Of a stretch of 30,488 nucleotides of DNA, positions 14,900 to 22,419 are shown in pieces. Made by a program: the position numbers and the translations under genes. How positions within the stretch are numbered: the first letter of the stretch is position 1; each line of letters starts with the position of its first letter. This stretch comes from a virus, in IMG/VR virus record IMGVR_UViG_3300008106_000020, positions 1 through 30,488 of that record, one strand, 5' to 3'. Under the pieces are notes generated by a model. That model did not search any database. It saw only the letters and a program-made list of their open reading frames with translations, and was not told where the DNA came from.

Positions 14900-16312
14900 A
14901 TGCCTTATAATGGCAGTGGAGTATTTACTCGTTTATATTCGTGGGTAAACGATGCCGCAGCAAATATCAAAATCCGTGCAGACCGCATGGATAATGAAAT
15001 GAACGGCATGGCCGTTGCTTTATCTACGGCAATCACGAAAGACGGTCAGACCACTATCACGGCAAATCTGCCTATGTCTAGCTTTCGTCATACTGGCGTA
15101 GGCAATGCTGCTTCGCGCACTGATTATGCAGCATTTGGGCAAGTACAGGATGGTAAGGCCGCATGGGTTGACGGTGGCGGCACAGCGGACGCAATTACTG
15201 CTGCTTATTCAATTCCAATTACGGCACTTGTTGACGGGCAACTTTGCTATGTGCGTGCAACGGCTGCTAACGTCACAACTACCCCGACGTTTTCCCCTAA
15301 TGGATTGACTGCTAGGACAATCGTTAAAAACGGCGGACAAGCGCTTGTTGCTGGCGATATTTCTGGTGACGGGCATGAATTGGAACTTCGCTATGATTTG
15401 GCAAATACTCGCTGGGAATTGATGAATCCGCGCCCGGTTTCAGTGACCAACCCCGTACTCAACGGCACCATCACCGGAAGCGCCTCGCCTAAAATCAACA
15501 ACTTCCGCCTGACTCTTACCACTGACGTGCCTGTCACCACAACGGACGTCACGGGCGCAAGCACGGTTTTCCTGACGCCTTACAACGGCAATCAGATTGC
15601 GCTGTATAACGGTACCGCATGGGAGCTATTGACTACGGCGCAAGTTTCACTCGCGCTTTCCGGCCTGACTTCTGGCCGCCCCTATGACGTGTTCGCCTAT
15701 AATAATGCTGGCACGGTTACGCTCGAAACGCTTGTGTGGACGAACGACACCACCCGCGCCACGGCGCTTGCCTATCAGGATGGCGTGCTTGTTCGCAGCG
15801 GCAGCACTACCCGCCGTTATCTGGGAACGTTCTACAGCACCGGCACGACGACGACGGAGGATAGCGCAAAGAATCGTTATCTTGCGAACTATTACAACAC
15901 GGTTCGTAAAAATATGTCTGCCGCCGAATCCACAGCGTCATGGACATATAGTACCGCCGCTTATCGGCAATGGAATAACGCCACTAACGCGGAAGTCAGT
16001 TTTATTCAGGGCGTTGCAGAAAATGCCGTGGAATGCCGAGTGTCGGGGAGGTTTGTCAATAGCACCGCAACAGCGCGGCAAGCATGGGTTGCAATCGGTC
16101 TCAATTCAGCAACAGCATTATGGGGGAACGCATCAATAGAAACTCAGCCTGTGATTAGTGCTGTGGCAGCATCAGGAACTTCACAGGGAAGCGCATTTCT
16201 TTTGGGAAAAAACACATTTAAGGCGCTTGAATACGGAGCCGGAGCCGATACTCAAACTTGGTATGGCACAAGTCAATGGCCGACAGGAATCTTTGGGAGC
16301 ATTAGCGTATGA
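14900..16312 (+). CDS. Tail fibre / receptor-binding protein
   Basis: A 470-aa protein. The N-terminus (FTRLYSWVNDAAANIKIRAD, then MDNEMNGMAVALS) is the typical virion-attachment segment of many tail fibres and tailspikes. From about residue 180 a second block begins (ASPKINNFRLTLTTDVPVTT, then STVFLTPYNGNQIALYNGTA and RRYLGTFYST) that recurs widely at fibre C-termini. The DNA of this block (about 15430-15900) is GC-richer, consistent with exchange of the receptor-binding part. AAGGTGG precedes the ATG; the stop overlaps a small gene (ATGA). No peptidase or depolymerase motif is obvious. Confidence 0.8.
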   Translation: MPYNGSGVFTRLYSWVNDAAANIKIRADRMDNEMNGMAVALSTAITKDGQTTITANLPMSSFRHTGVGNAASRTDYAAFGQVQDGKAAWVDGGGTADAITAAYSIPITALVDGQLCYVRATAANVTTTPTFSPNGLTARTIVKNGGQALVAGDISGDGHELELRYDLANTRWELMNPRPVSVTNPVLNGTITGSASPKINNFRLTLTTDVPVTTTDVTGASTVFLTPYNGNQIALYNGTAWELLTTAQVSLALSGLTSGRPYDVFAYNNAGTVTLETLVWTNDTTRATALAYQDGVLVRSGSTTRRYLGTFYSTGTTTTEDSAKNRYLANYYNTVRKNMSAAESTASWTYSTAAYRQWNNATNAEVSFIQGVAENAVECRVSGRFVNSTATARQAWVAIGLNSATALWGNASIETQPVISAVAASGTSQGSAFLLGKNTFKALEYGAGADTQTWYGTSQWPTGIFGSISV

Positions 16313-16467
16313 AGCTTCACGAACTCGACCAACTGATTAGAAGCATTTGCCCGATTAGTGGCATCAATACGGAAGGAGCCATCTGGTTTCCGCCAGAAGA
16401 CACGCCGGAGCAACGCGCAGCAGCGCAGGCGATTATGGACGAACATTTGGAGGAGGTGGTAGTATGA
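16309..16467 (+). CDS. 52-aa fibre-associated small protein
   Basis: A 52-aa gene overlapping both neighbours by four bases (ATGA at 16309 and at 16464). Its sequence (MKLHELDQLIRSICPISGIN, later AIWFPPEDTPEQRAAAQAIM) resembles short proteins found beside tail fibre genes (XkdW type): a helix, a Trp-Phe-Pro-Pro turn and a helix. Its 3' end supplies the GGAGGAGG ribosome site of the next gene. It could be a fibre assembly factor or small tail component; the coding status is stronger than the function. Confidence 0.7.
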   Translation: MKLHELDQLIRSICPISGINTEGAIWFPPEDTPEQRAAAQAIMDEHLEEVVV

Positions 16468-17114
16468 CGATTGTGGCCAGAGCTAAGGGGATCCGCGCCG
16501 GGTTCGACGCATTGCCTAATAACGTTTATCAGAAAGTCATTTGGGATGTGATTGATTACGATACGCACCCTTCTGCTGCACCCGGTGTCTCCGGAATGCT
16601 GGTAAAAAACGGCGGAACAGATACTCCGAGCGGTAATATCGTTCTGCGAGAAACAGGATTCTACCGCATCAAGGCACAAATCTACATCACAACTTCGTCA
16701 AGTCTCAGAAGTTTTTATGTCGGCATTCGTAGCCTCGGCACTGCCGGCACCACAATTTCAGATATAGCATACGCGAATGAGGAGATTCCCGCAGGCCAGC
16801 ATCCATCGCTTTCGATTGATACGATTGTTAAAAACGACGTAGCTAATACATATTATGACATTGTGACGCAAGCGATAAGCATCCCGGCGGCGACTTCGTT
16901 ATTGCAAAGTGGCCATGTCTATACATGGCTTGAAATCGAATATATCGGCGGACTTGATAGCAACTTCCCCAACAACGGCACCGCTGATTTGTCGCAAGTA
17001 AATGCGGCCATTGCGGAGCTTACTGCTAGGGTTAATGTGCTTGAGCAAAATCCGGCGCAACTTCCACAGACTCTTACTATTAGCGGCGGCACTCTAAATC
17101 TGGGGGCGTTATGA
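16464..17114 (+). CDS. Putative fibre/C1q-like beta-rich protein with coiled-coil tail
   Basis: A 216-aa protein behind a strong GGAGGAGG site. Residues 20-160 look like a jelly-roll head of C1q/TNF type (GNIVLRETGFYRIKAQIYIT and HVYTWLEIEYIGG are typical strands). A short heptad segment follows (AIAELTARVNVLEQNP, about 184-199) that could trimerise it, then a Gly/Leu-rich end. It sits between fibre and lysis genes, so it is probably a second receptor-binding or fibre-tip protein. The four-base overlap with the next gene (ATGA) shows co-translation. Confidence 0.6.
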   Translation: MTIVARAKGIRAGFDALPNNVYQKVIWDVIDYDTHPSAAPGVSGMLVKNGGTDTPSGNIVLRETGFYRIKAQIYITTSSSLRSFYVGIRSLGTAGTTISDIAYANEEIPAGQHPSLSIDTIVKNDVANTYYDIVTQAISIPAATSLLQSGHVYTWLEIEYIGGLDSNFPNNGTADLSQVNAAIAELTARVNVLEQNPAQLPQTLTISGGTLNLGAL

Positions 17115-17434
17115 CCATTAAGCGCATCGAATCGCTAGAAAGCACTGTCACTGAGCATAATCGTAGGCTTGACGATCATGCCAAACTTCATGCGAAACAT
17201 ATCGCTGCTGATAACGAACACACGCGCCTTCTTGCAATGAATGCCGCAAGCATTGCAGCCCTTGAGAAAAATACCGAAGTGACCACGCGCCTGACAACCG
17301 TCATGGGCAACTTGATTGAGGCACTGGCTTGGGCGAGCAAAATCAGCAAGGCTATTTTGTGGGTAGCTGGCGGTATTGCCGTTTTAATCGCAGGAACGAA
17401 AATTATTGTAGCTAAATTGTCGGGGTATATGTGA
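17111..17434 (+). CDS. XhlA-like membrane protein (lysis cassette)
   Basis: A 107-aa protein with a charged N-terminal coiled coil (residues 5-62: SLESTVTEHNRRLDDHAKLH and following) and one membrane span at about 81-100 (AILWVAGGIAVLIAGTKIIV), then a short tail. This matches haemolysin XhlA-type proteins, which cooperate with holins. It directly precedes the endolysin, whose GTG start overlaps its stop (GTGA). A GGGGG site lies ahead of the ATG. It could be the holin proper or an accessory/antiholin, since a 3TM holin-like gene follows the amidase. Confidence 0.65.
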   Translation: MTIKRIESLESTVTEHNRRLDDHAKLHAKHIAADNEHTRLLAMNAASIAALEKNTEVTTRLTTVMGNLIEALAWASKISKAILWVAGGIAVLIAGTKIIVAKLSGYM

Positions 17435-17844
17435 GGCATATTACAAAAGTTATCATTCACTGCGCCGCCACCAAGCCAAGCATGGATATAGGCGCGAGTG
17501 ACATTAAAAAATGGCACCTCGATAGGGGGTGGAAGGATATAGGCTATCATTATGTTATCCGCCGGAATGGCGACATAGAAAATGGCATAGGCGTGGCGTT
17601 GGCCGGTTCGCATACCAAAGGCCACAACGCCAGCAGCATCGGAATTTGTCTGGTGGGCGGGATTAACAATAAAGGCGAGCCGGAAAACAATTTTACAAAA
17701 CCACAATGGGCTACACTCGAAAGGCTTGTACGCATTCTAAAAGTTGATTTTCCTCACGCTACGGTGCATGGACACAGAGAATTTGCAGCTAAGGCTTGCC
17801 CGTCATTTGACGTGCAGGAATGGTTAAAAGACAAAGGAATATGA
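17431..17844 (+). CDS. Endolysin: N-acetylmuramoyl-L-alanine amidase, T7-lysozyme type
   Basis: A 137-aa Amidase_2-family enzyme very close in layout to T7 lysozyme. It hydrolyses the bond between muramic acid and L-alanine in peptidoglycan. Zinc ligands are His10 (VIIHCAATKPS), His115 (VHGHREF) and Cys123 (KACPSFD). Catalytic Tyr39 (GYHY) and Lys121 are present, so the enzyme should be active. There is no signal peptide, so it needs a holin to leave the cytoplasm, and putative holins lie on both sides. The GTG start is supported by the homologous N-terminus. Whether it also inhibits an RNA polymerase, as T7 lysozyme does, is unknown. Confidence 0.93.
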   Translation: MRHITKVIIHCAATKPSMDIGASDIKKWHLDRGWKDIGYHYVIRRNGDIENGIGVALAGSHTKGHNASSIGICLVGGINNKGEPENNFTKPQWATLERLVRILKVDFPHATVHGHREFAAKACPSFDVQEWLKDKGI

Positions 17845-17846
17845 TT

Positions 17847-18275
17847 ATGGCATTTGACCCCATCAGCGCGGCTCTTGGTATCGGGGAAAAGCTAATTGAC
17901 AGATTGTGGCCAGACCCGGCGCAACGTGATTCCGCAAAACTTGAACTTCTAAAAATGCAGCAGACGGGAGAACTGGCGCAGCTTGCCTCTGATACGCAAC
18001 TGGCTAAAGGGCAATTAGCCATTAACGCTAAGGAAGCCGCACATTCCAATATATTTGTATCGGGCTGGCGGCCTTTTATCGGCTGGGTATGCGGCGCGGC
18101 TTTTGCTTATGCTCTAGTGCTTCAGCCCATGATGGTGTTTATTTTAGCCGCTTCTGGCAAGGTTCTACCTCCATTGCCAAACATAGACACAAATTTGCTA
18201 GGCTGGGCGCTGGGTGGTATTCTCGGCCTTGGTACAATGAGAACCACAGAGAAGATTAAGGGGGTAACAAAATAA
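17847..18275 (+). CDS. Holin, 3TM family (gene-transfer-agent type)
   Basis: About 142 aa. The ATG at 17847 has AAGGA at proper distance; an alternative ATG at 17841 overlaps the amidase stop (ATGA). The N-terminal half is charged and amphipathic (FDPISAALGIGEKLIDRLWP, then an Ala/Gln/Leu helix). The C-terminal half holds membrane segments (FIGWVCGAAFAYALVLQPMM and LLGWALGGILGLG). SGWRPFIGW and the final TMRTTEKIKG are typical of the 3TM holin family found in gene transfer agents of Alphaproteobacteria. It would form the membrane lesion that releases the amidase. Confidence 0.8.
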   Translation: MAFDPISAALGIGEKLIDRLWPDPAQRDSAKLELLKMQQTGELAQLASDTQLAKGQLAINAKEAAHSNIFVSGWRPFIGWVCGAAFAYALVLQPMMVFILAASGKVLPPLPNIDTNLLGWALGGILGLGTMRTTEKIKGVTK

Positions 18276-18448
18276 TGTCCAATCTTAGACTTGTTGCCAA
18301 TAATACTGAGCGTGACCTTATGGAGAACCGCATAGGGAGAGAGTTGATTATCCTTCAATGTCTGCGCCCGTATTGCCGCTATCGTTGGAAAGCAACCATA
18401 GCAGACTGTGACGAGCCAAAATGCCCCCGCTGTCATAGCGAGTTTTAG
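18275..18448 (+). CDS. 57-aa zinc-ribbon-like protein
   Basis: A 57-codon gene whose ATG shares one base with the holin stop (TAATG), with AAGGGGG upstream. Cys29, Cys34, Cys45, Cys50 and Cys53 (CLRPYC, ADCDEPKC, PRCH) suggest one zinc ribbon, and the N-terminal helix is basic. It is the last gene of the rightward late operon, and its stop overlaps the end of the leftward operon by four bases. Similar tiny zinc proteins occur at the ends of lysis cassettes; the function is unknown. Confidence 0.65.
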   Translation: MSNLRLVANNTERDLMENRIGRELIILQCLRPYCRYRWKATIADCDEPKCPRCHSEF

Positions 18449-18588
18449 GATTTCATATCGTTCCATTTTTTGATGAAAGCGGTGATTTCACCTGCTTTAA
18501 TTCGCTTTTCTTCTTTCAATAGCAAATGGTCACGCGCACGCTCAAGCAACGATATTGCTTCATCCATCATTTCTGCTTGTGTGGTCAT
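18445..18588 (-). CDS. 47-aa helical protein, last gene of leftward operon
   Basis: A 47-aa charged helical peptide (MTTQAEMMDEAISLLERARD, ending KKWNDMKS). AGGA lies 7 bases upstream of the ATG. The ATG overlaps, as ATGA (18585-18588), the stop of the reading frame nested in the methyltransferase gene. No motif is recognised. Its stop overlaps the convergent zinc-ribbon gene. A small regulatory or host-targeting peptide is possible. Confidence 0.55.
   Translation of the reverse strand: MTTQAEMMDEAISLLERARDHLLLKEEKRIKAGEITAFIKKWNDMKS
18476..18498 (+). terminator. Possible weak terminator hairpin
   Basis: AAAGC-GGTG, loop ATTT, CACC-T-GCTTT gives a 9-bp stem with one bulged T, followed by AATTCGCTTTTC. 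It lies 28 bases past the end of the rightward operon. The T-tract is poor, so this is tentative. Confidence 0.3.
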
Positions 18589-19436
18589 GCTTCTATCCTA
18601 TCTTTCTGCTGACGTGATAAACGCCGCCGCGACTTTCGAAACGATTGCATTGCCGAAAGCATGGAGGATAGGTGCGCGGTGCTGTACCCCATGAGCCAGC
18701 AAACGAAGGCCGGATTTAACTGGCCGCCGCTTTCCGTCTGGACATTCGAGCCACTCCATACCATCCGCCCAAGGAGCCCGTTCACCGGCACGTTCGGGGT
18801 GAAGCTCCCGTCCTTGTGGTCGCGGCTGGTTGGTGTCGGCCACATCGCCATTGCCGCAAAATCGTTCAGATTGTTTGACCTGTTCGGGTCTGTCGCTCTG
18901 TGCGCTTCCCCGGAGCGAAAATCCCTCGCTTGCGGAGTCGGCCACATCGTCGCCTTCAAAGCCGCTGTCGCTAGGTCGTCCCCCGCGTGGCGGTTCCCCG
19001 TTCTGTTCTCTGACTTCGCCGTGTCCCCCTGCCCATTCAAGCGAGGGGTCGGCCACAAACCATAGTCTGTCCCGCTTGTGGGGCGCACCGACACTACAAG
19101 CTGGCCTAATTTCCGCCCGCGTGGCGTAACCTTCTCTTTCCAGATCATCGGCCACATCATCCCACCAACCGTGGCGTATAGCGGCTGACACTTGCTCTCC
19201 AAACACAACTGGCGGTCGGGATTCACGGATAAGGCGGAACCACACCGGCCACAGGTGGCGCTTGTCTGCTTTGCCTTTTCCTTTTCCCGCCGTGCTGAAC
19301 GGCTGGCAGGGGCAGCTTCCTGTCCAAACAGGTCTATCGTCTGGCCACATCGCAAGTCGCAGGGCAACTGACCACCCGCCGATTCCGGCAAAGAAGTGGC
19401 ACTGTGTGTAGGGTTTAAGGTCATCTGGTCTGACAT
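18585..19436 (-). CDS. Second protein encoded inside the methyltransferase gene, other frame
   Basis: A 283-aa reading frame on the same strand as the methyltransferase gene but in another frame; 839 bases are shared. Its ATG (19436-19434) has AAAGGAG eight bases upstream, and its TGA overlaps the next gene's ATG as ATGA (18585-18588), like most junctions here. The product has TIDLFGQEAAPASRSA near the N-terminus, a Cys cluster (CGRC to CLESKC), three WPTP motifs (LWPTPRL, MWPTPQARD, MWPTPTSRD) and LNPAFVCWLMGY near the C-terminus. I recognise these as recurring in phage and bacterial proteins of unknown function. It may be a genuine overlapping gene or a conserved shadow; the start and stop signals favour real. 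Confidence 0.6.
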   Translation of the reverse strand: MSDQMTLNPTHSATSLPESAGGQLPCDLRCGQTIDLFGQEAAPASRSARREKEKAKQTSATCGRCGSALSVNPDRQLCLESKCQPLYATVGGMMWPMIWKEKVTPRGRKLGQLVVSVRPTSGTDYGLWPTPRLNGQGDTAKSENRTGNRHAGDDLATAALKATMWPTPQARDFRSGEAHRATDPNRSNNLNDFAAMAMWPTPTSRDHKDGSFTPNVPVNGLLGRMVWSGSNVQTESGGQLNPAFVCWLMGYSTAHLSSMLSAMQSFRKSRRRLSRQQKDRIEA

Positions 19437-19545
19437 CTTCAATACTCCTTTCATCAACATCGCCTGGCGCAATCAGCCCGTCTGTTATAAGCTGACGCAG
19501 CATCGCCGCTGCCTTTGGGTCAAACTCGTTGTAATATGCTGTCAT
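18598..19545 (-). CDS. DNA cytosine-5 methyltransferase
   Basis: A 315-aa enzyme from the ATG at 19545, chosen because phage homologues start MTAYYNEFDP; a GTG at 19584 is possible. Motifs: I FFAGIGGWS (51-59, AdoMet site); IV SCPCQPFS with catalytic Cys80; VI FGEQV with Glu117; VIII HKRDRLWFV (156-164); X FGNAI near the C-terminus. Between VIII and X lies a loose segment with repeated VAD motifs, the target-recognition region. It methylates cytosine in DNA, most likely protecting phage DNA from host restriction. No partner endonuclease is seen. The gene is visibly GC-richer than its neighbours and carries a second frame over most of its length. Confidence 0.88.
   Translation of the reverse strand: MTAYYNEFDPKAAAMLRQLITDGLIAPGDVDERSIEDVRPDDLKPYTQCHFFAGIGGWSVALRLAMWPDDRPVWTGSCPCQPFSTAGKGKGKADKRHLWPVWFRLIRESRPPVVFGEQVSAAIRHGWWDDVADDLEREGYATRAEIRPACSVGAPHKRDRLWFVADPSLEWAGGHGEVREQNGEPPRGGRPSDSGFEGDDVADSASEGFSLRGSAQSDRPEQVKQSERFCGNGDVADTNQPRPQGRELHPERAGERAPWADGMEWLECPDGKRRPVKSGLRLLAHGVQHRAPILHAFGNAIVSKVAAAFITSAER
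18837..19158 (-). repeat. Dispersed CGGCCACATC repeats in methyltransferase gene
   Basis: The string CGGCCACATC occurs on the + strand at 18837, 18939 and 19149, a shorter CGGCCACA at 19050, and a variant TGGCCACATCG at 19342. On the coding strand it encodes mostly VAD in the methyltransferase frame and WP in the nested frame. Confidence 0.6.
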
Positions 19546-19559
19546 ATTGTGCGCGCCGC

Positions 19560-19877
19560 TTACCCCGATTTGACGCGCTGCCACCCGTCACCAGTAAAAA
19601 TGTAATGTGATTGTTCGTCCTTGACAAAAAGAACCAGCCCGCGATTCGGCGCGATATAACGCCAGATTTTATCGAAGTATGCTATCTGGCCAGCCTTGCC
19701 AGTCCACGGCCATGCAGGGTTATCCGGTATAATATAAACCGCGCCTGCCACAGGGTTTGCCGGCGGCGTTGCAATGTTTTTGCTGACCGCGCCAATAATG
19801 CTTTTGAATCCAGAACGCCTTGGCACATCAAACACGACGGTATCGATGCGAAACAAAACCTCATTAACGATAGTCAT
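19560..19877 (-). CDS. DUF2793-like protein
   Basis: A 105-aa protein. The ATG at 19877 follows AGGGGGGA, with an in-frame GTG directly before it. The segment PPANPVAGAVYII, then GKAGQIAYFDKIWRYIAPNR and YIFTGDGW, matches the DUF2793 pattern known from phage and gene-transfer-agent tail or fibre proteins, usually as a C-terminal module. Here it is free-standing and encoded in the leftward accessory operon, 14 bases before the methyltransferase ATG. It overlaps the preceding gene by 14 bases. It may be a virion surface or chaperone-like domain; its place among early genes is odd. Confidence 0.68.
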   Translation of the reverse strand: MTIVNEVLFRIDTVVFDVPRRSGFKSIIGAVSKNIATPPANPVAGAVYIIPDNPAWPWTGKAGQIAYFDKIWRYIAPNRGLVLFVKDEQSHYIFTGDGWQRVKSG

Positions 19878-20598
19878 CACTCCCCCCCTGATTGTTATAT
19901 GCGTCCTTTTTATGCTGCCTTATGCATTCCAGCGCCCAGTCCCATCCGCTTTTCTTCGTGATTGCTGCCGCCCCATCCCATCCGCATTCCCTTGTAATTG
20001 CTGTGTCCTGCGGGTTGCGCCTTCCTGATTCTGCATGCCAGGTCTGCGGTGCCATTGTGCGGTACTTTGCCAGCTTCTCAGAGTCGGGCTTTACAAAGCT
20101 GTCATCTTTCCAAAGAATACGGTTGTTGGGCATGGCGGCGATTTGGCCGGATCCGTCCTCGAGCAGCAGCAGGTGGTAACACTTATGCTCCGGCGGATAC
20201 TGGCTAAAGCCATTGTCCGTGTGGTCGAGCGTGAACCAGTAAGAAGCTGGCACGAGCGTTCCGTCTGGCTTTCGGTACTCGCAGCCCATCTCGCGCAGGT
20301 ATTCATATTGCACAGTTGAGAAATCCCAGCCGTGACAATCCCAGCATTGCAGGTCAGTGATGGGATGTGGTGCAATTTCAGGCTCATTCCAACGCAGCAT
20401 GTGAATCGGTATTCTTGCCCATTGTGCGCCGCTTTCGCACAGAATGGAAAAGTGCAAACAACGTGAAGGAATGCTAGTCACGCCGATAATGACGCAAGGC
20501 TCAAAACCTTGCGAGTCATCCATGCCTTGAAGTATGTCGGTTTGTACCATCCCATAAAGATGCTGCGGAACGGATGCGTTTAGTGTATGGTGCGTCAT
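19864..20598 (-). CDS. Conserved phage protein of unknown function
   Basis: A 244-aa protein with GAGG six bases before its ATG; the ATG overlaps the previous stop (ATGA). The sequence includes DLQCWDCHGWDFSTVQYEYL, then FTLDHTDNGFSQYPPEHKCY and MPNNRILWKDDSFV. I recognise this pattern from unnamed proteins in phages of Rhizobiales-like hosts. Two Cys (CWDC) and conserved His/Asp could bind metal. No membrane segment is present. The C-terminus contains a short self-similar pair (ECGWDGAAAITKK and SGWDWALECI). The function is unknown; a virion or entry role is possible since DUF2793 follows. Confidence 0.62.
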   Translation of the reverse strand: MTHHTLNASVPQHLYGMVQTDILQGMDDSQGFEPCVIIGVTSIPSRCLHFSILCESGAQWARIPIHMLRWNEPEIAPHPITDLQCWDCHGWDFSTVQYEYLREMGCEYRKPDGTLVPASYWFTLDHTDNGFSQYPPEHKCYHLLLLEDGSGQIAAMPNNRILWKDDSFVKPDSEKLAKYRTMAPQTWHAESGRRNPQDTAITRECGWDGAAAITKKSGWDWALECIRQHKKDAYNNQGGSDDYR

Positions 20599-21056
20599 GA
20601 CTTCCTCACCACTTTATAGCCGTTGTTGGATAGGGCGCGGATGGCTTTTTCAATCAACTCCCTACTTGAATATGTGTCAGAATATGTCGGCTCCATGCCC
20701 TTAGCCATAATCTCCACCACCTCATCCTCCGACACTTCCGCCGTGGGTTCGGGAGGGACACTTTCAATAACCGCGTGCAGTTTCCGCAGTGCTTTCTGCA
20801 AGTAGGCTTCTGATGCGTATTTGGCTATAAACCACAAACCTTCATCTTCGGCTTGCCTGTCAACCATTTTCCTGATTACAGCAATATGGTTATTTCCCGC
20901 CGTGGGCAGGGCGGCGCGGGCTTGCTTCCACTCATTCAGGCAATCTTCATAGCCGACTACTCGTGCCAAATCCTGCTTATCAACGGCGGTGTCTTTGAGC
21001 CATTTCAAATGGTCAACCGCCTTTTCGTATGCGTCGCGTTCATCAATGTTGGTCAT
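20595..21056 (-). CDS. Hypothetical helical phage protein
   Basis: A 153-aa acidic helical protein behind a strong AAGGAGG site. The C-terminus (SSRELIEKAIRALSNNGYKV) is a helix common to several small phage accessory proteins. The middle holds a Pro/Glu linker (ESVPPEPTAEVSEDEVVEIM). No catalytic residues stand out. It lies four bases from the stop of the next upstream gene and overlaps the following one, so it is translated within the operon. It could be a host-modulating accessory protein; nothing decides this. Confidence 0.55.
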   Translation of the reverse strand: MTNIDERDAYEKAVDHLKWLKDTAVDKQDLARVVGYEDCLNEWKQARAALPTAGNNHIAVIRKMVDRQAEDEGLWFIAKYASEAYLQKALRKLHAVIESVPPEPTAEVSEDEVVEIMAKGMEPTYSDTYSSRELIEKAIRALSNNGYKVVRKS

Positions 21057-21059
21057 GGC

Positions 21060-21446
21060 CTAGCCCTCCTTCTTGGTGGTTGCGATGGCTTTCTTTGCTG
21101 CTTCGCTCGGCCACGGAGTGCAATCTTCACCAAGTGCAGTTTCAAAAGCATCTACAATTCTATTCCAGTAATCTGGACAAACGTGTTCTGGCGAGCCATC
21201 TCTAGCTCGAATAGCATTCATCTCGTACCATGAATACCATAACAACCCCTTCAACCGCTCTATCTCCGCATCCTTCTCAGCCAGCTCCTTTGCCGATTCA
21301 GCGCGTGCGGCTTCTGTCCGCGCCCATATTGCGCCAACTGCTATGCGGGCAACTCCAGCCACATTTGCAATGCCGTCCTTGTGCCAAGTGTTGTAAATCG
21401 CGCCCCTAACCGTTTCTATTAAATCACTCCTGTCTTTATCAGTCAT
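21060..21446 (-). CDS. Hypothetical protein with coiled coil
   Basis: A 128-aa protein with AAGGAG seven bases before its ATG. Residues 45-68 form a heptad coiled coil (AARAESAKELAEKDAEIERL). The C-terminal part (YWNRIVDAFETALGEDCTPW) resembles accessory proteins such as the Ea22/Ead type carried in early regions of lambdoid and related phages. Its start overlaps the end of the preceding gene by eight bases. The role is unknown. Confidence 0.55.
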   Translation of the reverse strand: MTDKDRSDLIETVRGAIYNTWHKDGIANVAGVARIAVGAIWARTEAARAESAKELAEKDAEIERLKGLLWYSWYEMNAIRARDGSPEHVCPDYWNRIVDAFETALGEDCTPWPSEAAKKAIATTKKEG

Positions 21447-21666
21447 TGCTTTGCTCCTTCATTTCAAACGCCACTTTAACTTTTTTGTACAATTCTGCAA
21501 AATCATTAAGGCTATCTATTGCCCATCCTTCCGTAGTAAATCTAACATATTTACCAGCCCCGCCATCACACACCTCAAATGTCAATATCTGTAAGGCAGA
21601 ACTATTACTGCAATCATCCGCCTCTTGCGTGAATTGCATTGTACCTCCAAATAATTCCGTTGCCAT
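21439..21666 (-). CDS. 75-aa hypothetical protein with two possible starts
   Basis: A 75-aa acidic protein from ATG 21666, with GGAGG six bases upstream. A second in-frame ATG (21639) has its own GGAGG four bases upstream and would give 66 aa starting MQFTQEADDC. The body (LQILTFEVCDGGAGKYVRFT, then EGWAIDSLNDFAELYKKVKV) looks like a compact beta-beta-alpha domain. No family is assigned. Both products could be made. Confidence 0.55.
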   Translation of the reverse strand: MATELFGGTMQFTQEADDCSNSSALQILTFEVCDGGAGKYVRFTTEGWAIDSLNDFAELYKKVKVAFEMKEQSND

Positions 21667-21667
21667 C

Positions 21668-21976
21668 TCACACCTCCTTCACAAGCGGTGCGGCAAGCCT
21701 TCGAGCCTCGCCAATAGTTGCCTCGGCCATATCGCCAAGATGTCCTCTGAAATATCCAGCGGCTTGTGTAATGCTCAATGCATCATCAAGCTTCCTAATC
21801 ACCTCCTGCTGCCGCCGGATGATGTCGGCCATGAGTGGGGCTTCTTCCGCAAGGTCGTTATCCTCTTTTGTTTGGCCGCCCTCAGTATAAAGCCATTCAC
21901 TGCCATTCCCTGCTTTCGCAGCAAGCTCCATCACCCGCTTAATATCGGCGGCTAGTTTTTCAGTGTCTGTGGTCAT
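21668..21976 (-). CDS. Hypothetical small helical protein
   Basis: A 102-aa acidic protein behind AAGGAGGA. Features are MTTDTEKLAADIKRVMELAA and IIRRQQEVIRKLDDALSITQ, both amphipathic helices, and a central GNGSEWLYTE strand. The layout resembles accessory Ead-like proteins in early phage regions that contain a tail-to-tail helical pair. The ATG overlaps the end of the pentapeptide gene (ATGA). The function is unknown. Confidence 0.55.
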   Translation of the reverse strand: MTTDTEKLAADIKRVMELAAKAGNGSEWLYTEGGQTKEDNDLAEEAPLMADIIRRQQEVIRKLDDALSITQAAGYFRGHLGDMAEATIGEARRLAAPLVKEV

Positions 21977-22419
21977 ACTTCCTCCTTCTTTTCTCTATGC
22001 GCTTTGCACATGGCAAGAAGCGCGTCTTTATGCGCACGCCAAAAATCCAATGCGCCGTCATGCATATCGGCAATCACTTCGTCATCAAATGATTCCCAAT
22101 CCGCGTGTGTATGGCGCTTGCAACCAATAGCCATAAATCCTTCGGTGATAATAATGTGCCACCTTAATCCTGTAAGTATTACCGGAGATTTGCTTAAAAT
22201 TTCACCGCGCAGATTGGCATCGCGCAGATTGGCATCGCGCAGATTGGCATTGGCATCGCGCAGATTGGCATCGTACAGAGTGGCATAGCGCAGATTGGCA
22301 CCGCCCAGATTGGCATCGCGCAGATTGGTTTTGTTTGCTTCACACGCATGGCGCAAAGATTCATATTCACCATCTATCAATATATCTCCAGTAAATCTGT
22401 TTTTGATAACTACTCGCAT
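21973..22419 (-). CDS. Pentapeptide-repeat protein
   Basis: A 148-aa protein with AGGAGG five bases before its ATG. Residues 32-72 are pentapeptide repeats of A(N/D)L-type, mostly NLRDA, which fold into a right-handed beta-helix. The register is interrupted once by an extra Ala-Asn at 57-58. The C-terminal 70 residues (WHIIITEGFMAIGCKRHTHA, then ADMHDGALDFWRAHKDALLA) form the domain that commonly follows such repeats in phage proteins. Pentapeptide proteins can mimic DNA or act as scaffolds; with only about eight repeats, a DNA-gyrase type role is uncertain. The repeats are near-identical in DNA. Confidence 0.8.
   Translation of the reverse strand: MRVVIKNRFTGDILIDGEYESLRHACEANKTNLRDANLGGANLRYATLYDANLRDANANLRDANLRDANLRGEILSKSPVILTGLRWHIIITEGFMAIGCKRHTHADWESFDDEVIADMHDGALDFWRAHKDALLAMCKAHREKKEEV
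22206..22331 (-). repeat. Eight 15-base tandem units in pentapeptide gene
   Basis: Units of 15 bases (CGCGCAGATTGGCAT on the + strand) run from 22206 to 22331. Units 1-4 are identical and units 5-8 differ by one to three bases. A six-base insertion (TGGCAT, 22251-22256) separates units 3 and 4 and adds two residues without a frameshift. The similarity suggests recent expansion by slippage. Confidence 0.85.

Follow-up and report, generated by a model that had tools for sequence, protein, structure and literature searches.

The small gene of the methyltransferase M.EcoHK31I is reportedly nested within its large gene in another reading frame, and the smaller polypeptide of this enzyme is said to be about 23 kDa in size. 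PMC3404938, which cites Lee, Kam and Shaw (1995), presents M.EcoHK31I as a C5-cytosine methyltransferase of E. coli (YGGCCR) made up of two polypeptides, in which motifs I–VIII and X are located in the larger subunit and motif IX in the smaller polypeptide, and the predicted target-recognition domain is assigned to the larger subunit. The cyanobacterial enzyme M.AquI (CYCGRG) is a C5 methyltransferase that is likewise split in nature and has motif IX on its smaller subunit (PMC3404938), and the natural circular permutations of C5 methyltransferases reported in PMC5944983 are all split in the variable region. In the present work, we describe a phage locus in which a gene for a C5-cytosine methyltransferase (alpha) contains a second gene (beta) nested in another frame of the same strand. 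Judging from the distribution of the sequence motifs, this locus very probably encodes a M.EcoHK31I-type two-polypeptide C5-cytosine DNA methyltransferase, with beta as the second subunit bearing motif IX.

The locus and its two products

The window (the whole stretch of DNA that was analysed, 30,488 nucleotides from an IMG/VR virus record) is a fragment of a phage genome, which also encodes a major head protein, amidases, a holin, a helicase and a primase. Two genes upstream of the methyltransferase (19864-20598, minus strand) there is a 244-aa protein that matches phrog_3704 (auxiliary metabolic, 'ferredoxin', 2.5e-32). The features of the locus are summarized in Table 1.

Table 1. Features of the methyltransferase locus (positions in the window)
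Feature	Position	Strand	Remarks
Alpha, C5-cytosine DNA methyltransferase ORF	18598..19584	minus	328 codons from GTG
Alpha, large subunit, probable extent	18598..19545	minus	Start most likely ATG 19545
Alpha motif II (YYNEFD)	19519..19536	minus	Before motif I
Alpha motif III (GDVDERSI)	19441..19464	minus	Before motif I
Alpha motif I (FFAGIGG)	19375..19395	minus	AdoMet
Alpha motif IV (GSCPCQPFS)	19294..19320	minus	Catalytic Cys93, invariant in 40 relatives
Alpha motif VI (FGEQV)	19189..19203	minus	Catalytic Glu130, invariant
Alpha motif VIII (HKRDRLWFVAD)	19048..19080	minus	R171 and R173 invariant
Alpha motif X (FGNAIV)	18640..18657	minus	
Beta, nested second gene; proposed second subunit with motif IX	18585..19436	minus	283 codons/aa, ATG start
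Shine-Dalgarno sequence of beta (AAAGGAG)	19445..19451	minus	8 nt before beta ATG
Beta central segment WPMIWKEKVTPRGRKLGQLVVSVRPTSG	19071..19154	minus	Family consensus LTWKxWxTPxG...LRASVRRTS
Beta WPTP 1 / alpha motif VIII VAD	19044..19055	minus	Beta residue 128
Beta WPTP 2 / alpha VAD repeat	18933..18944	minus	Beta residue 165
Beta WPTP 3 / alpha VAD repeat	18831..18842	minus	Beta residue 199
Beta motif-IX-like segment LNPAFVCWLMGY	18684..18719	minus	Beta residues 240-251
47-aa ORF	18445..18588	minus	ATGA at 18585-18588 joins its ATG to the beta TGA stop

An earlier sequence-only reading had described a 283-codon frame overlapping the methyltransferase gene on the same strand by 839 bases, an AAAGGAG eight bases ahead of the nested ATG, and an ATGA that joins the nested stop to the next gene, with the methyltransferase ending 13 bases earlier and lacking such a junction; all of these features and their positions are confirmed in the sequence. 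Beta is in the +1 frame relative to alpha, and no family match was found for the 47-aa ORF that follows it. Because the relatives of alpha begin at MxYYNE, which forms their N-terminal start, alpha itself probably begins at the second of the two starts in Table 1. The Shine-Dalgarno sequence of beta sits inside the alpha codons for DERSI, where the Arg is encoded by AGG. This codon is used at the same position in 10 of 45 genes (8% elsewhere), which is a weak signal, since in many relatives the beta start lies four codons further on and has a different Shine-Dalgarno sequence.

The assignment of alpha is supported by matches to Pfam DNA_methylase (2.6e-17) and phrog_363 (4.8e-74) and by its predicted structure, which aligns to M.HhaI with a Z of 14.8 over 205 residues. 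The marks of C5-cytosine methyltransferases (viz. motif I, the PCQ of motif IV, and motifs VI, VIII and X) are invariant or nearly so in 40 relatives, and a pattern search for a motif-IX-like segment in the alpha chain of the same relatives found it in none (0/40). Residues 196-266 of alpha, where a target-recognition domain would lie, are predicted without structure (pLDDT under 50).

In alpha of the window, motifs II-III (YYNEFD...GDVDERSI) precede motif I (FFAGIGG; 19375-19536, minus strand). When motif I is moved to the front, the score against single-chain methyltransferases rises by about 7-18 bits in all 40 alpha proteins. With both TIGR00675 and hhalign the N-terminus of alpha is aligned with motif II, and the structural alignment begins at residue 14 of the alpha model versus residue 34 of M.HhaI. 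This order is common to the window's own group, and further alpha proteins with a beta partner (Redbud, Dash and GordDuk1) keep the usual one. The former represents a different rearrangement from the natural permutations reported in PMC5944983, since those are all split in the variable region.

Beta matches phrog_1008 (5.4e-33) along almost its entire length (residues 4-277 aligned to profile positions 9-296 out of 329), a family that is catalogued as 'DNA methyltransferase'. Its central segment is predicted to form two strands (model residues 97-103 and 109-115), and the motif-IX-like segment is present in 46 of 47 beta proteins. The repeated WPTP and the LNPAFVCWLMGY segment to which the sequence-only reading had drawn attention are indeed found in the nested product, the former three times. 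The Cys cluster that it also pointed out is present in beta of this phage; it is not a family feature, because only 1-3 of 45-47 relatives have a Cys at the positions of C30, C65, C78 and C83. The possibility that beta is a zinc-finger protein was rejected on the same grounds, the Pfam zf-C4pol match having an E of only 0.7, and a Pfam match to the cytochrome-like NorB (E 0.0089, below the cut-off) was judged to be due to chance over the WPTP stretch. The predicted structure of beta has a mean pLDDT of 59.8 and gave no significant structural match; so poor a model for the lone chain is as might be expected for one that folds on a partner.

Occurrence of the pair in other phages

Relatives of beta are widespread. 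Beta matches 244 phage records, a scan of IMG/VR with the beta alignment found at least 555 loci that encode relatives, and a match was present in 25 of 398 genomes in a draw from the phylum of Pseudomonas (the centre genome included). The pair is conserved across phages of Proteobacteria, Paenibacillus and others. At 88 loci (nine found earlier plus the new loci kept among the matches listed, selected for their closeness to the query), the beta gene lies over alpha in the +1 frame; the strict rule holds at 86 of them, and the other two have an overlap of 779-791 nt. No beta gene apart from alpha was found among these 88 loci, which thus yielded none of the free-standing nested-type proteins that it had been suggested to search for. 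Both frames are annotated in Redbud (g50 and 'g50 internal gene'), K1H (ORF29 and ORF28, 'Mte8-like') and PhiXhv-28, the records of which resemble the window locus in arrangement and state no subunit function for the nested protein; in most other records, a single frame carries an annotation. In the literature searched, no description of a nested methyltransferase arrangement in phages was found.

These observations bear on the possibility that beta, as a real protein, serves a separate function (e.g. as a regulator, anti-restriction factor or DNA-binding protein), which is nested within alpha by happenstance. The N-terminal half of beta is without known relatives and its complex with alpha is one that we infer, both of which would accord with a separate role. 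However, the consistent overlap with alpha at the 88 loci examined, and the fact that the very motif missing from alpha is the one present in beta, render this explanation unlikely. The suggestion made from the sequence alone that beta is a partner or target-site module of the methyltransferase gains support from this complementary distribution of motif IX and from the resemblance of the layout to that described for M.EcoHK31I (PMC3404938).

Constraint on the nested frame

A nested frame of this length could in principle arise without being a gene, if a G+C-rich methyltransferase gene left its +1 frame open and similar among relatives as a shadow of alpha. Relatives of alpha were fetched with alpha as the query, a choice blind to beta, and were pooled with the relatives fetched with beta. 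In the alpha-query set, all intact alpha relatives have a +1 frame that is open for the greater part of its length, and the remaining frames are mostly interrupted. L018 and L020, the two exceptions, are themselves disrupted in alpha by a frame break or an insertion. Hence, no relative in this set combines a broken second frame with an intact methyltransferase. In L020 (2501-3724), the alpha/beta pair carries an insertion of about 600 bases inside the overlap, relative to the window. In the window, the longest +1 frame is 291 codons, a length reached by none of 500 shuffles in which the alpha protein was kept fixed and its synonymous codons were shuffled (mean 127, maximum 277). Across the 45 genes, the observed +1 length is reached by at most 5 of 500 shuffles in 33, and by more than 5 in the other 12. 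Raw openness was dropped as the main proof for this reason and serves as supporting evidence only, since on its own it is weak in G+C-rich genes.

Codon choice at synonymous sites provides stronger evidence. The identity of alpha relatives at fourfold sites is 0.37 before the overlap (0.28 is expected from codon usage), 0.40 and 0.47 within the first 80 codons of the overlap, and 0.63-0.65 in its remainder, which is a strong synonymous suppression in the second half of the overlap. Over roughly its first 40 codons, beta shows little such suppression above the baseline, and this stretch may be scarcely more than a shadow of alpha that is tolerated. The alpha sequence VAD occurs four times in the window, and at 26 of 33 VAD sites of the relatives it is encoded by GTG GCC GAC, which reads as WPT in the beta frame (5% expected). 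A beta profile trained on half of the genes scored a median of 274 bits against the +1 frame of the held-out half. Synonymous shuffles of the same alpha genes scored 107 bits, and the real frame exceeded all 50 shuffles in 43 of 43 genes. As the shuffles alone retain about 107 bits, only the excess over them is counted, and the tblastn similarity of the nested frame was dropped as proof.

When changes in 99 related pairs were sorted by their effect in both frames, dNN/dNS for beta was 0.71 (bootstrap 0.67-0.75), dNN/dSN for alpha was 0.68 (0.65-0.71), and dSN/dSS was 0.44, the bootstrap intervals being too narrow because the pairs share members. Purifying selection thus acts on the second frame, and both frames are under a similar degree of constraint. 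The nearest contig, L035 (IMGVR_UViG_3300008105_000042), is 99.8-100% identical to positions 15993-22084 of the window and lacks about 107 bases at window positions 16689-16795; its proteins are identical in both frames, so that it is uninformative for an intraspecies comparison.

The nested frame is a real gene, and the earlier proposal that the locus encodes two conserved proteins is upheld by frame openness, synonymous suppression, codon choice, held-out scores and two-frame substitution ratios. It is very improbable that the frame is a mere by-product of alpha: shuffled alpha genes do still reach about 107 bits against the beta profile, the single-chain genes of actinophages give weak matches in their +1 frame, indicating that the similarity is partly a shadow of alpha, and extra conservation is slight in the N-terminal part of beta; but such a shadow does not account for real scores above all shuffles, the suppression at fourfold sites, VAD codons fixed as WPT needs, the dNN/dNS ratio, a Shine-Dalgarno sequence and ATG of its own, or a motif-IX segment that also stands in frame in other proteins.

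Single-chain relatives and known split enzymes

These other proteins are single-chain methyltransferases of Mycobacterium and Gordonia phages, in which a segment of the form LxPxFxEWMMGxPxGW is present in frame between motifs VIII and X. In-frame equivalents of the beta segment are found in ShiLan gp70, SchottB gp4, KyMonks1A gp92 and Trax gp78, and in ShiLan LPTP repeats also lie in frame between motifs VIII and X. The beta profile matches ShiLan gp70 in the methyltransferase frame (E 1.1e-9, in a small set), and an hhalign comparison of beta with the single-chain actinophage methyltransferases aligned the segment with an E of 4.8e-6, over 24 columns only. On the basis of these in-frame matches, the motif-IX segment of beta is no mere shadow of alpha. 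The single-chain actinophage enzymes (ShiLan gp70 etc.) thus have LPTP repeats and LxPxFxEWMMGxPxGW where the C-terminal part of beta stands, but they differ from the present locus in having one frame, one polypeptide and the motif order I-II-III. That ribosomal frameshifting yields one alpha-beta fusion (in alpha up to motif VIII, in beta for IX and back in alpha for X) would agree with the order VIII - LPTP repeats - IX - X of these relatives but is scarcely credible, for ribosomes would have to shift twice, beta possesses a start signal of its own, and the N-terminal half of beta over alpha motifs VI-VIII is itself conserved.

Zerg gp69, Dash gp67, a Microbacterium phage gp29 and BcepC6B gp33 are short enzymes resembling alpha whose own frame lacks motif IX, and their +1 frame holds an LMG segment or matches beta strongly. 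A further split, M.AquI-like and in overlapping frames, is seen in the Gordonia phage GordDuk1 (L087, 1279-2152), where alpha goes no further than motif VIII and the LPTP, motif-IX-like and motif-X-like segments are encoded in the +1 frame. In the Paenibacillus polymyxa plasmid pAP1 (L089, 1057-2130), LNPxWVECLMGFP occurs twice in the beta frame, the second copy lying after a stop, and the methyltransferase frame spans both copies, indicating an internal duplication.

We favour the two-polypeptide enzyme, in which alpha would supply the catalytic domain (viz. the AdoMet site, Cys93, Glu130 and motifs VIII and X) and beta the motif IX helix and probably also part of the target-recognition region, with the WPTP stretches as putative linkers. 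Both would be translated from one mRNA, beta from its own internal ribosome-binding site in the +1 frame, and would assemble into an active enzyme for which both are presumably needed. Such an enzyme would methylate the phage DNA, probably as a protection against host restriction. Target recognition may perhaps come partly from beta; in M.EcoHK31I, the predicted domain lay in the larger subunit. It is also possible, and is put forward here tentatively, that a large and so far unrecognised clade of phage methyltransferases is naturally split in this manner over two frames that overlap almost completely, the nested chain holding motif IX and target recognition and alpha having motifs II-III before motif I, an order unlike the natural circular permutations reported for C5 methyltransferases.

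It has rarely been established for a long overlap on one strand that both proteins function. For the present overlap of about 840 bases, a clear reason for both frames would be that they encode two halves of the same enzyme. This reading would also turn an isolated biochemical oddity into a widespread architecture and account for a family that has no catalytic motifs and is catalogued as 'DNA methyltransferase'. Expression of one annotated frame alone, in methylome or cloning work, may yield an inactive enzyme.

Among the known systems, the locus can be likened to M.EcoHK31I, which is described as similarly lacking motif IX in its larger subunit and carrying it in the smaller polypeptide. The window locus and the 88 loci examined all have the layout of that type, with a small gene nested in a large one in another frame. 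However, beta has 283 aa, as against about 23 kDa for the small chain of M.EcoHK31I, and the present locus differs in being phage-borne and without an obvious restriction enzyme. The smaller subunit of M.AquI also holds motif X, whereas in the window locus motif X stays in alpha, and GordDuk1 appears closer to the M.AquI split than the window locus does.
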